In this document: positions 43,146 to 47,167 of the stretch, piece after piece
Position numbering within the stretch: position 1 is the first letter of the stretch
Layout of the letters: each line of letters begins with the position of its first letter
Assembly: GCF_000828675.1 (NCBI RefSeq)
Contig: NZ_AP014510.1
Location: 1,631,413-1,695,412 of the forward strand
Reading direction: 5' to 3'
Length of the DNA: 64,000 nucleotides
From: Thermotoga profunda AZM34c06
Lineage (GTDB): Bacteria; Thermotogota; Thermotogae; Thermotogales; DSM-5069
Notes under the pieces: generated by a model
The model's input: only the letters and a program-made list of their open reading frames with translations
The model's database searches: none
What the model was told of the DNA's origin: nothing
Translations under genes and position numbers: made by a program

Positions 43146-44891
43146 TCAATCTACATGAATATGCTCAGCCGCGGTTGTGCTTTTGGAAAATTCCTCCTGG
43201 TAAACTTGTTTTTTTCTGTAAGCATTGATCGTCGAAATGAAAGCTTCGATTATCATCCATATCGCTATGATTAATGTAACAAGAGCAATGAAAACCAAGA
43301 GCCAATTCTTTGCATTGTAATAGTTTTTCACATTCAAAATCGTTGCCCAGATAGTCATTGTGAGCATGAAAATCATTGGGAATAATGTTGGCCACACAGG
43401 CTTTCTTTTCTTTGCAAGGTAGACAGTTGCTATCATCAGTGCAAGTCCAGCCAAAAGTTGATTTAAAGCTCCAAAAACTGGCCATAACTTCATAGCACCT
43501 CGACCATCTGGTGATACCATGCACAACGCAAATGCGGCAGCAACTACAACAAATGTGGTGAAATATCTGTTTTTAAATGGTCCAATTGGTTTACCATCTG
43601 CCCCCTTGAACAATTCTTCCATTCCAAAACGCTGAATCCTCGTTGCAGAATCGAGAGTCGTTCCAGCAAAAGAAACTACGAAAATTGCCATCAGTGTCGC
43701 ACCCAGATCCTTCGGAATACCTATTGCTTTCATTAGATTTGAAGCTCCTTCAACTATTGCCTTGAGTTGGGCGGCAAGACCTGCACCAGCAGTAGTAGAC
43801 CATGTTGAATAATATTTTAGATAGCCAGCACTTCCGGCTCCAAACATACCTATTCCTGCCGTCACTGCAACGATTACAAGAGTTGAAAGCGATCCTTCAA
43901 GTAACATCCCACCATATCCTACGAACTGCGCATCTGTTTCTTTATCGAGTTGTTTGACTGTAGTTCCAGAAGATGCTAAACTGTGAAAACCACTGATTGC
44001 ACCACAAGCAATCGTGACAAACAGAAGTGGCCACATGCTTGGTGCACCGGATACTCTTTGATAAGCAGGTGCGACGATTTCGGGCCTTGCAACAAGTGTA
44101 CCCAAGAATAGGGCTCCCATCAAAACCAAGAGTTCATGCGAATTTATGTAATCTCGCGGTTGTAAAAGTGTCTGTACGGGAAGAACGGATGCAAAGTAAG
44201 AATAAATCAATAGGATTATTATCCAACTCACAACAGGTGAAATACCACCAATCTTGGGTATTCTCAAAGGAAGGTAAATTCCTATTACCGCAAAAACATA
44301 CAGCAAAATCAAGCCTATTATGGAATAAACAGTGTCTTTCTTACCCTTTTTGTAAACCATGTAACCTATCCAGATTGCTATTGGTATTTCCATCCATATA
44401 GACAAGACACTTTGAGGATACATATCAAACAAAATACCCATTATCATCGCAAAAACTGCCAAAACAAGCCAGAGCAAGAATTGAATTAGAATCAAGAATA
44501 TTACTCCAACACGATTGGACACTATACCCCTTGTCATTTCTCCAATAGTTTTACCACCGTGTCTTGATGAAATCACCAATGATGCGAAGTCATGCACCCC
44601 TCCGGCAAAGATGGGACCCAAGAAAACCCAAAGAAAAGCAGGTAACCAACCCCAAACAACTCCTATTGCCGGACCAACTATTGGCCCTGTACCGGCGATA
44701 GTTGTAAAGTGATGCCCAAGCAAGATATGCCTTTTGGTTGGTACATAATCAACTCCATCTTTGAATTTTTTAGATGGAACTGGATTATCCTCTCTCAAAC
44801 CAAAAAGTTTTCTCGAGAGCCATTTGCCATATGTGTTGTATGCCACAATGTAGCCAAAAAAGGCAACCAATGCCAAAACGAGCGAATTCAC
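43146..44891 (-). CDS. cstA: CstA-family transporter (carbon starvation/pyruvate type)
   Basis: This 581-residue protein has about 15 predicted membrane helices. The CstA signature HHFTTIAGTGPIVGPAIGV is at residues 59-77, followed by GGVHDFASLVISSRHGGKTI. E. coli members (CstA, BtsT) take up pyruvate or peptides; the substrate here is inferred. Length is shorter than the ~700 of enterobacterial CstA. GTG 44891 follows GGGGTGGTGAAGT. Upstream (minus strand order) are a LytTR regulator and a LytS-type kinase. A direct repeat about 70-95 bases upstream of the start is a candidate regulator site. Confidence 0.92.
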   Translation of the reverse strand: MNSLVLALVAFFGYIVAYNTYGKWLSRKLFGLREDNPVPSKKFKDGVDYVPTKRHILLGHHFTTIAGTGPIVGPAIGVVWGWLPAFLWVFLGPIFAGGVHDFASLVISSRHGGKTIGEMTRGIVSNRVGVIFLILIQFLLWLVLAVFAMIMGILFDMYPQSVLSIWMEIPIAIWIGYMVYKKGKKDTVYSIIGLILLYVFAVIGIYLPLRIPKIGGISPVVSWIIILLIYSYFASVLPVQTLLQPRDYINSHELLVLMGALFLGTLVARPEIVAPAYQRVSGAPSMWPLLFVTIACGAISGFHSLASSGTTVKQLDKETDAQFVGYGGMLLEGSLSTLVIVAVTAGIGMFGAGSAGYLKYYSTWSTTAGAGLAAQLKAIVEGASNLMKAIGIPKDLGATLMAIFVVSFAGTTLDSATRIQRFGMEELFKGADGKPIGPFKNRYFTTFVVVAAAFALCMVSPDGRGAMKLWPVFGALNQLLAGLALMIATVYLAKKRKPVWPTLFPMIFMLTMTIWATILNVKNYYNAKNWLLVFIALVTLIIAIWMIIEAFISTINAYRKKQVYQEEFSKSTTAAEHIHVD

Positions 44892-44958
44892 ACTTCACCA
44901 CCCCTTGTTATTTAGATTCATATTTTATTGTGTCTTACTAAAAATTACGGTGAAGATC

Positions 44959-44988
44959 AAAAGGTAGTTTTTGAGGAATAAGAAGTAG
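44959..44988. promoter_or_regulatory. Candidate LytTR-type direct repeat upstream of cstA
   Basis: On the plus strand AAnAnGTAG occurs twice: 44959-44967 and 44980-44988, exactly 21 bases apart (two helical turns). LytTR regulators typically bind two short direct repeats with this periodicity; the E. coli BtsR site has 8-bp repeats with a 13-bp spacer. A TAAAAT -10-like box (minus strand, 44927-44922) lies downstream, with no good -35, as expected for an activated promoter. Confidence 0.4.
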
Positions 44989-44999
44989 AAAAATGTACT

Positions 45000-45672
45000 T
45001 CAAACGAATAGAGAAGACTTGACAAGTTTTTGATACTGTCTTGAAACAGGTATTAAACTCGAGTTCTCAAGTTCTACTTGCATGCTGGGAACTCGAATTA
45101 CTTTCTTAACTCGCTCCAAATTACATATATACGATTTGTGAACTCTAAGAAAGTTCTTTGGTAATCTCTTTTCGAGTTCACTGATACCCCAGTGGTAAAT
45201 TTCGTATTCCCCATCAGTTGTATTAGCGATACATCTTTTACCAAAAAGCCTCTATATAGAATACTTTATCAAAACTGAGCATTAAAATATTTTCTCCTTC
45301 TTTTACAGGTAGTTTTATAAGAGGTTTAGAATATGCTTGAATAAGCCTCTCTACGCATATATCAAATCTTTCTTCACTAACAGGTTTTACCAAATAGTCT
45401 ATTGCTCCAATCTCGAATGCCCGCGCAGCATACTGCTCATAAGCTGTGACAAAAACTATCCCGATTCCCCTCAATTTCTTTGCAACATTCAAGCCAGATT
45501 CAAATGGTAACCTTATGTCGATGAAAGCTACATCAAATTCCTTTATATGTTTTGAGAATTCTTTCGCAGTTCGGAAAACACCGGTGAGTTTGAGTTCAGG
45601 ATATCTTGATATCATGCGAACAATATCTTCACGTGCAAGTTGCTCGTCTTCTAAAACAGCTACCCTTATCAT
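45000..45672 (-). pseudogene. LytTR-family response regulator, apparently frameshifted
   Basis: The frame from ATG 45672 (after GGAGGG) encodes a receiver domain with Asp52 (AFIDIRLPF) and stops at 45238 after YIEAFW. A second frame continues without pause to 45000 and encodes the rest of a LytTR DNA-binding domain: DGEYEIYHWGISELEKRLP, NFLRVHKSYICNLERVKKV and IPVSRQYQKLVKSSL. Removing one T from the five-T run at 45247-45243 fuses both into about 223 residues, normal for the family. It is either a recent inactivation, a sequencing error or recoding. The start overlaps the kinase gene by 44 bases. Confidence 0.82.
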
Positions 45673-47167
45673 GAATTCCCTCCATCGGAATGCTGATAAT
45701 AACATTCAAACCATTTTTACTCTTGTATTCTATCTTTGCTCTATCTGAATAAATATTCTTAAGTCTTGCTTCAACAAGCATCATACCTATACCTTTCTTT
45801 GAGTCAGATTTCATGCCGTTACCTTTATCACATACCTTCAAAATTAGGTTCTCATCTTTTTGAGCTGCTTCAATCTTCACGATGATCCTGCCGTCTTTTT
45901 CACCATGCTCAATAGCATTTTCAACAATCGGTTGTAGAATCATCGGCGGGATACAGTGGTATTTAAGATCTTCTGGTACATCGATTTGGTATATCAACGC
46001 TTCTCCATATCTAAGTTTCATTATTGAAAGATAGCACTCTATGATTCTAATCTCTTCATCAAGTGTCACCAATGGTTCTTTTTTCTTAAAGTAATATCTC
46101 AGCAATTCTGACAACTCATCAATCATTTTCACAGCGCTATTTTGATCTGTTTTCACAAGATACCTTATGCTTGCCAGAGTATTAAACAGAAAATGTGGTC
46201 CAAGTTTTGACATGAAATCTCTCATTTGTGCTTCACGCGCAAGTATCGCTTCCCTAACGGCTTTTGCAGCAAGCATGACTATCTCCACAAATTTTGCGAT
46301 TTCTTTTATCATCATTATTTGTTCTTCTTGAAATCGCGCATTATTAATGACGATTAAATTCCCTAATGCTCCATTCTTTGCCATCAATGGCACACAGATT
46401 TTTGTTATATTATTTTCATTCACCGCTGGACAACTATTCAGATCAATCACAACTTCATCAACGTCAAGGACAAGAGATATTTTATGTGCAAATCTGACTA
46501 AGTTTTCTGATTTTGGATCTTCAACGACTCTTATTGCATCTTCCACAATCCCAAGAGTGGCTGCGAATACTTGCGATGATGCAATTTTAATGGCTTGTTC
46601 TGTATATTTGGTGAGTGCTAATATGAGTGCAACACCAAAAGCATTGGTTATCACCATAGGCATAAGCGCATTTGAAACTATGTCGACAGCTAAAGAACGC
46701 GGTGTGATAATCAAATAAGCAACGAACAAATGAACAAGTTCCGAAACAGCAGATAATAAACAACCAAAAATGACTTTTTCATTTGATCTCATAAACGATT
46801 TTCTAAAGAAACTTGAGAAGACACCTGCGCACAATGTACCTATAGAACAAGCTAATCCCGAAGGTCCACCAAGCAAAAATCTGTGTGTCGAAGCAATCGA
46901 ACAACTCAAAAGAGTAGCAGGTAATCCACCATATAAAGAAGCAACAATTACACCCATATCACGGTAATTTATTATCGTACCTTTGTAAGGTAATCCCAGT
47001 ATCGTACCAATGATGCCAAAGATGCCACCAAAAAAACCCAAAGTCAGTGGTTTGTTACCTTCGAAAAGCTTGACGAAGGATTTTTTGGTCTTGTAAAACT
47101 GAAGAAAGAAAAAGATGATAACACCGAGCAGCGTCATCCTACTGAATAAAGTAATAACTAAATACAC
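45629..47167 (-). CDS. LytS-family sensor histidine kinase
   Basis: This 512-residue kinase has an N-terminal 5TM-5TMR_LYT membrane domain (NYRDMGVIVASLYGGLPATL, GGPSGLACSIGTLCAGVFSS), a GAF-like middle and the LytS-type kinase core with LGPHFLFNTLASIRYLV and PPMILQPIVENAIEHG. GTG 47167 follows GGTGGGGGAAT. E. coli BtsS, of this family, senses pyruvate and controls a CstA-type transporter, matching the neighbouring cstA. The C-terminus runs 44 bases into the regulator gene. The last residues (DKGSCFRRRATCT) come from that overlap. Confidence 0.93.
   Translation of the reverse strand: MYLVITLFSRMTLLGVIIFFFLQFYKTKKSFVKLFEGNKPLTLGFFGGIFGIIGTILGLPYKGTIINYRDMGVIVASLYGGLPATLLSCSIASTHRFLLGGPSGLACSIGTLCAGVFSSFFRKSFMRSNEKVIFGCLLSAVSELVHLFVAYLIITPRSLAVDIVSNALMPMVITNAFGVALILALTKYTEQAIKIASSQVFAATLGIVEDAIRVVEDPKSENLVRFAHKISLVLDVDEVVIDLNSCPAVNENNITKICVPLMAKNGALGNLIVINNARFQEEQIMMIKEIAKFVEIVMLAAKAVREAILAREAQMRDFMSKLGPHFLFNTLASIRYLVKTDQNSAVKMIDELSELLRYYFKKKEPLVTLDEEIRIIECYLSIMKLRYGEALIYQIDVPEDLKYHCIPPMILQPIVENAIEHGEKDGRIIVKIEAAQKDENLILKVCDKGNGMKSDSKKGIGMMLVEARLKNIYSDRAKIEYKSKNGLNVIISIPMEGIHDKGSCFRRRATCT

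Follow-up and report, generated by a model that had tools for sequence, protein, structure and literature searches.

Results

A LytS/LytTR locus beside a CstA-family transporter gene

The window is the whole stretch of DNA analysed, 64,000 nucleotides from the genome of the thermophile Thermotoga profunda AZM34c06 (NZ_AP014510.1, positions 1,631,413 to 1,695,412), and positions are counted from its first letter. Three adjacent genes encode a LytS-type sensor histidine kinase, a LytTR response regulator, and a CstA-family transporter; these and the other window features described below lie on the minus strand. The gene order kinase, regulator, cstA is common to all four genomes of the genus-level set, which consists of the window's host and the congeners G001, G002, and G003. 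The assignment of this group to Pseudothermotoga is based on its closest relatives with a name, an uncultured Pseudothermotoga sp. and a Thermotogota MAG.

The kinase (45629–47167; 512 aa) is intact by its Pfam matches, orthologues, and dN/dS. The 5TM-5TMR_LYT membrane domain (E 5e-30) is accompanied by His_kinase (E 8e-23) and HATPase_c (E 3e-6) matches, the combination expected of a LytS/LytTR kinase, and a GAF match is sub-threshold. The orthologues in G002 and G003 are 72–73% identical, and the own-branch dN/dS is 0.08. The last 44 bp of the kinase gene are shared with the start of the regulator gene (45629–45672); in G002 and G003 the kinase stop codon comes ~15 bp sooner. The CstA-family transporter (43146–44891; 581 aa), the probable target gene, is likewise intact, with a Pfam CstA match at E 1e-137, 90% identity to the G003 protein, and a dN/dS of 0.04.

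The regulator's best NCBIfam match is Escherichia coli BtsR (NF008677). The first half scores 82 bits against this equivalog model and an intact congener 111 bits, neither reaching the cut-off of 246.

The open frame of the LytTR regulator is broken at a T run

Frame 1 of the regulator begins with an ATG at 45672–45670 and encodes the receiver, a linker, and the start of the LytTR domain (45238–45672; 144 aa) before it ends in a TAA at 45240–45238. The Pfam Response_reg profile matches residues 4–103 of this first half (E 1e-13). The frame closes with GAG GCT TTT TGG TAA, in which the T5 run at 45247–45243 contains the extra base, and the TAA is reached because the frame changes at this run. 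The distal LytTR DNA-binding domain lies in the neighbouring frame (45000–45242), which stays open until a TGA at 45002–45000 and covers positions 19–96 of the 98 in the LytTR profile (E 4e-15). The initial annotation had described a LytTR regulator split by one base at a five-T run, with the receiver and early LytTR segment stopping at 45238 and the remainder of the domain continuing in the adjacent frame to 45000; frame analysis, Pfam, and alignment agree on each of these points. Only the first ~18 profile positions precede the break, and therefore the 144-aa product is essentially devoid of a DNA-binding domain. The distal half has no ATG, GTG, or TTG start ahead of its core, and its first in-frame TTG is ~38 codons from the end, which rules out an internal restart that yields a stand-alone LytTR protein.

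Each of the four genus genomes has exactly one LytTR gene, and the open frame is broken only in the window's. The receiver and LytTR domains, separated in the window, are joined in one protein in all three congeners. These congener regulators are 223 aa long and align with the two window frames end to end at 72, 72, and 59% identity, which bears out the 223-residue product projected from the window alone. As judged from these alignments, the match of the split regulator to its congeners is far beyond chance. The sole gap in the 673-base DNA alignment of the four genomes is the extra T in the window. At this site the window reads GGCTTTTTGG, G003 and G001 read GC-TTTTGG with a T4 run, and G002 reads GC-TCTTGG with TCTT in place of the run. 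None of the three congeners has the extra T, which marks the insertion as derived and confined to the window genome. A disabling change confined to one lineage with intact orthologues elsewhere is the pattern of a recent pseudogene.

A predicted operator precedes cstA

The DNA between regulator and cstA contains a direct repeat, TTNRTTCC-N13-TTNRTTCC with a period of 21 bp, in all three relatives. Counted past the regulator stop codon, the repeat units lie at offsets 17 and 38 and a TANAAT −10 element at offset 67, with 21 bp between the end of the repeat and this element. Paired repeats of 9–11 nt with 11–13 nt spacing before the target gene are expected of BtsSR/YpdAB-like LytS/LytTR systems. 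The direct repeat is a predicted operator of the regulator. No other exact match is present in G001 or G003, and G002 has one elsewhere; when one mismatch is allowed, the motif is about as frequent as a reversed control pattern. The corresponding region of the window spans 44922–44982, and the matching gaps are in L009, L010, and L003.

Comparison with the relatives indicates that the window retains predicted half-site 1, CTTATTCC (44975–44982), and is altered in predicted half-site 2 (44954–44961), which is TTTGATCT in the window and TTNATTCC in the three relatives. By offset comparison, the putative cstA −10 element TAAAAT (44922–44927) is at offset 72 rather than 67, which puts 5 bp more between it and the half-sites than the three relatives have. 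The window is changed at 4 of the 13 half-site columns where the other three genomes agree and at 0 of 10 columns outside, whereas the other species are jointly changed at 0 of 27 half-site columns and 11 of 41 columns outside. The half-site difference between the window and the others has a Fisher p = 0.008, a value obtained with leave-one-out columns and calculated after the motif had been seen. With half-site 2 altered and the −10 element shifted by 5 bp, the window promoter thus seems to be without the usual LytTR arrangement. This comparison rests on four genus genomes and a predicted operator, and the site in the window may have moved rather than been lost.

The distal half remains under constraint

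Own-branch dN/dS is 0.108 for the distal half (codons 145–223) and 0.097 for the front half (codons 1–142). Private amino-acid changes occupy 3 of 40 informative positions in the distal half, a number equal to those of G002 and G003. Relaxed selection on the distal half, sought through own-branch dN/dS and private changes, was not seen. The distal-half dN/dS comparison across relatives that had been proposed as a check was run, and it finds this half as constrained as the front; the accompanying suggestion that any decay is recent is upheld, with no decay yet begun. With a dS of ~1.0 on the window branch, neutral drift over even a tenth of its length is estimated to add ~18 replacements to the ~20 seen. 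The distal half is undecayed, and therefore the break, if real, accounts for no more than a few percent of this branch.

Origin of the extra base

The break is ordinary in kind, being either a very recent mutation or a sequencing error. On balance, a fresh loss-of-function insertion in the LytTR regulator, real in the organism's DNA, is the explanation that we favor. A sequencing or assembly error, by which the organism's gene would have T4 and encode an intact 223-aa regulator, is a possible but less probable account. It draws on the nature of the lesion, a singleton frameshift at a homopolymer in a gene otherwise constrained, and on the continuing constraint on the receiver, the distal half, and the kinase alike; an undecayed distal half is expected equally from an error. 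In a large survey of prokaryotic frame transitions, singleton frameshifts confirmed by BLASTp are expected to be mostly sequencing errors (PMC3711429), and this account therefore keeps about one third of the weight. Viral contigs were searched for another copy of this strain's sequence and contained none.

A frameshift census compared the ORFs of G003 and G001 with a 384-kb host stretch that includes the window. Among ~300 G003 orthologue pairs (290 kb of coding sequence), no bona fide gene apart from the regulator has a single-base frameshift, although the same sequence has 1,303 A/T runs of exactly 5 and 557 of at least 6. That no second such event occurs despite the many longer runs counts against an error, and a generally error-prone assembly is therefore unlikely, but one single error is compatible with the census. 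The remaining census candidates traced to intergenic or tRNA read-through, to spurious ORFs antisense to tRNAs, or to a rearrangement on a larger scale. The altered operator half-site in the same genome is not predicted by a gene-level error, and it moderately favors a circuit that is truly fading, as opposed to a pure sequencing error. Separately, the host counterpart of a 659-aa G003 gene (C5:115607-117583) lies outside the window at G000:C1 ~1,744,800–1,746,800 and has lost ~85 codons internally and gained a few hundred bp close to its 3′ end.

The initial annotation had named two alternatives to decay, a sequencing error and programmed recoding that gives both receiver-only and DNA-binding products. 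Recoding would take the form of a programmed +1 frameshift, or of slippage during transcription, at UUUUU. The distal half is indeed conserved, a +1 shift could leave UUU paired again, and a Shine-Dalgarno-like GAGG lies directly upstream of the T run (GAAG in the relatives). However, none of the three congeners shares the frame break and slip site, and T5, a run length commonplace in the census sequence, is shorter than the lengths cited for slippage (A above 7, T above 8; PMC3711429). The predicted RNA fold at the site does not surpass those of shuffled sequences (z = −0.20), there is no recognised slippery heptamer, just T5 followed by GG, and there is no restart codon. Unlike prfB, the codon after the window slip site is the sense codon UGG. 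Recoding is accordingly very improbable. A narrower version, even less probable, would be a low-level lineage-specific +1 slip at UUU-U, aided by GAGG, that makes mostly receiver-only protein and some full-length activator and tunes cstA as the operator weakened. Reversible phase variation through a change in run length is the least probable of these readings. LytTR regulators with reversible homopolymer indels do exist, such as agrA of Staphylococcus aureus (PMC7911514), but T5 is too short for a hypermutable tract, taken as a repeat of at least 7 nt, and in G002 a C breaks up the tract (TCTT).

Discussion

The favored reading begins with replication slippage, the most likely event, that would have inserted one T and converted T4 to T5; the insertion is inferred to be present in the organism's DNA. 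The protein would then end after the receiver, and the sensor would phosphorylate a receiver unable to bind DNA. Expression of cstA would now proceed without LytTR control. Such a state is viable, since the family-level genomes G005, G006, G008, and G010, from other genera, keep the CstA transporter with no LytTR gene anywhere. The operator change looks older than the frameshift because the DNA-binding half stayed constrained, and so the two could be separate events. The regulator perhaps kept other targets after its operator had changed.

If the base is real, a natural mutation has only recently knocked out a nutrient-sensing regulator here and left the sensor and transporter intact. The locus would also be a snapshot of a control circuit in the course of its loss, with other genera having the transporter without the regulator. 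If the base is an error, all that follows is one corrected base in a public genome. The predicted Pseudothermotoga operator, with its likeness to the YpdB site, makes the target of an uncharacterised system directly testable.

Loss of a LytTR response regulator by single-base slippage at a homopolymer has a parallel in S. aureus, where agr frameshifts are documented (PMC8768832). The S. aureus agrA mutants are alike in being sporadic and recent inactivations (PMC8768832, PMC7911514). They differ in that agrA belongs to a quorum-sensing system and its lesions recur across thousands of strains, whereas the present case is one genome with a short T5.

The closest known parallels are two pyruvate-sensing systems of E. 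coli, BtsS/BtsR-BtsT(YjiY) and YpdA/YpdB-YhjX. In the former, BtsS/BtsR sense pyruvate and turn on a CstA-family transporter (PMC5431176, PMC5552118). Gene order and family membership suggest an analogous circuit running from sensor to regulator to cstA, and in the genus the regulator very probably activates the adjoining CstA-type (pyruvate/peptide) transporter. The kinase shares the LytS domains of these systems (5TM-5TMR_LYT, a weak GAF-like region, and His_kinase), and the regulator is of the same receiver-LytTR type, with BtsR as its best match. The window and congener regulators fall below the BtsR equivalog cut-off, and a role in pyruvate sensing would be assigned by analogy. A CstA-family transporter accompanies the E. 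coli and Pseudothermotoga systems alike, but here its gene adjoins the others on the chromosome. A direct-repeat operator with a 21-bp period is also held in common, in this case as a prediction. The copies of the E. coli YpdB site are 21 bp apart, and the second site, once occupied, is proposed to recruit RNA polymerase (PMC4847170). The half-site of G002 and G003, TTTCATTCC, is identical to part of the YpdB site GGCATTTCATTCC. Set against the E. coli systems, the window stands apart in having the DNA-binding domain of its regulator cut off and the promoter-proximal half-site of its predicted operator altered.
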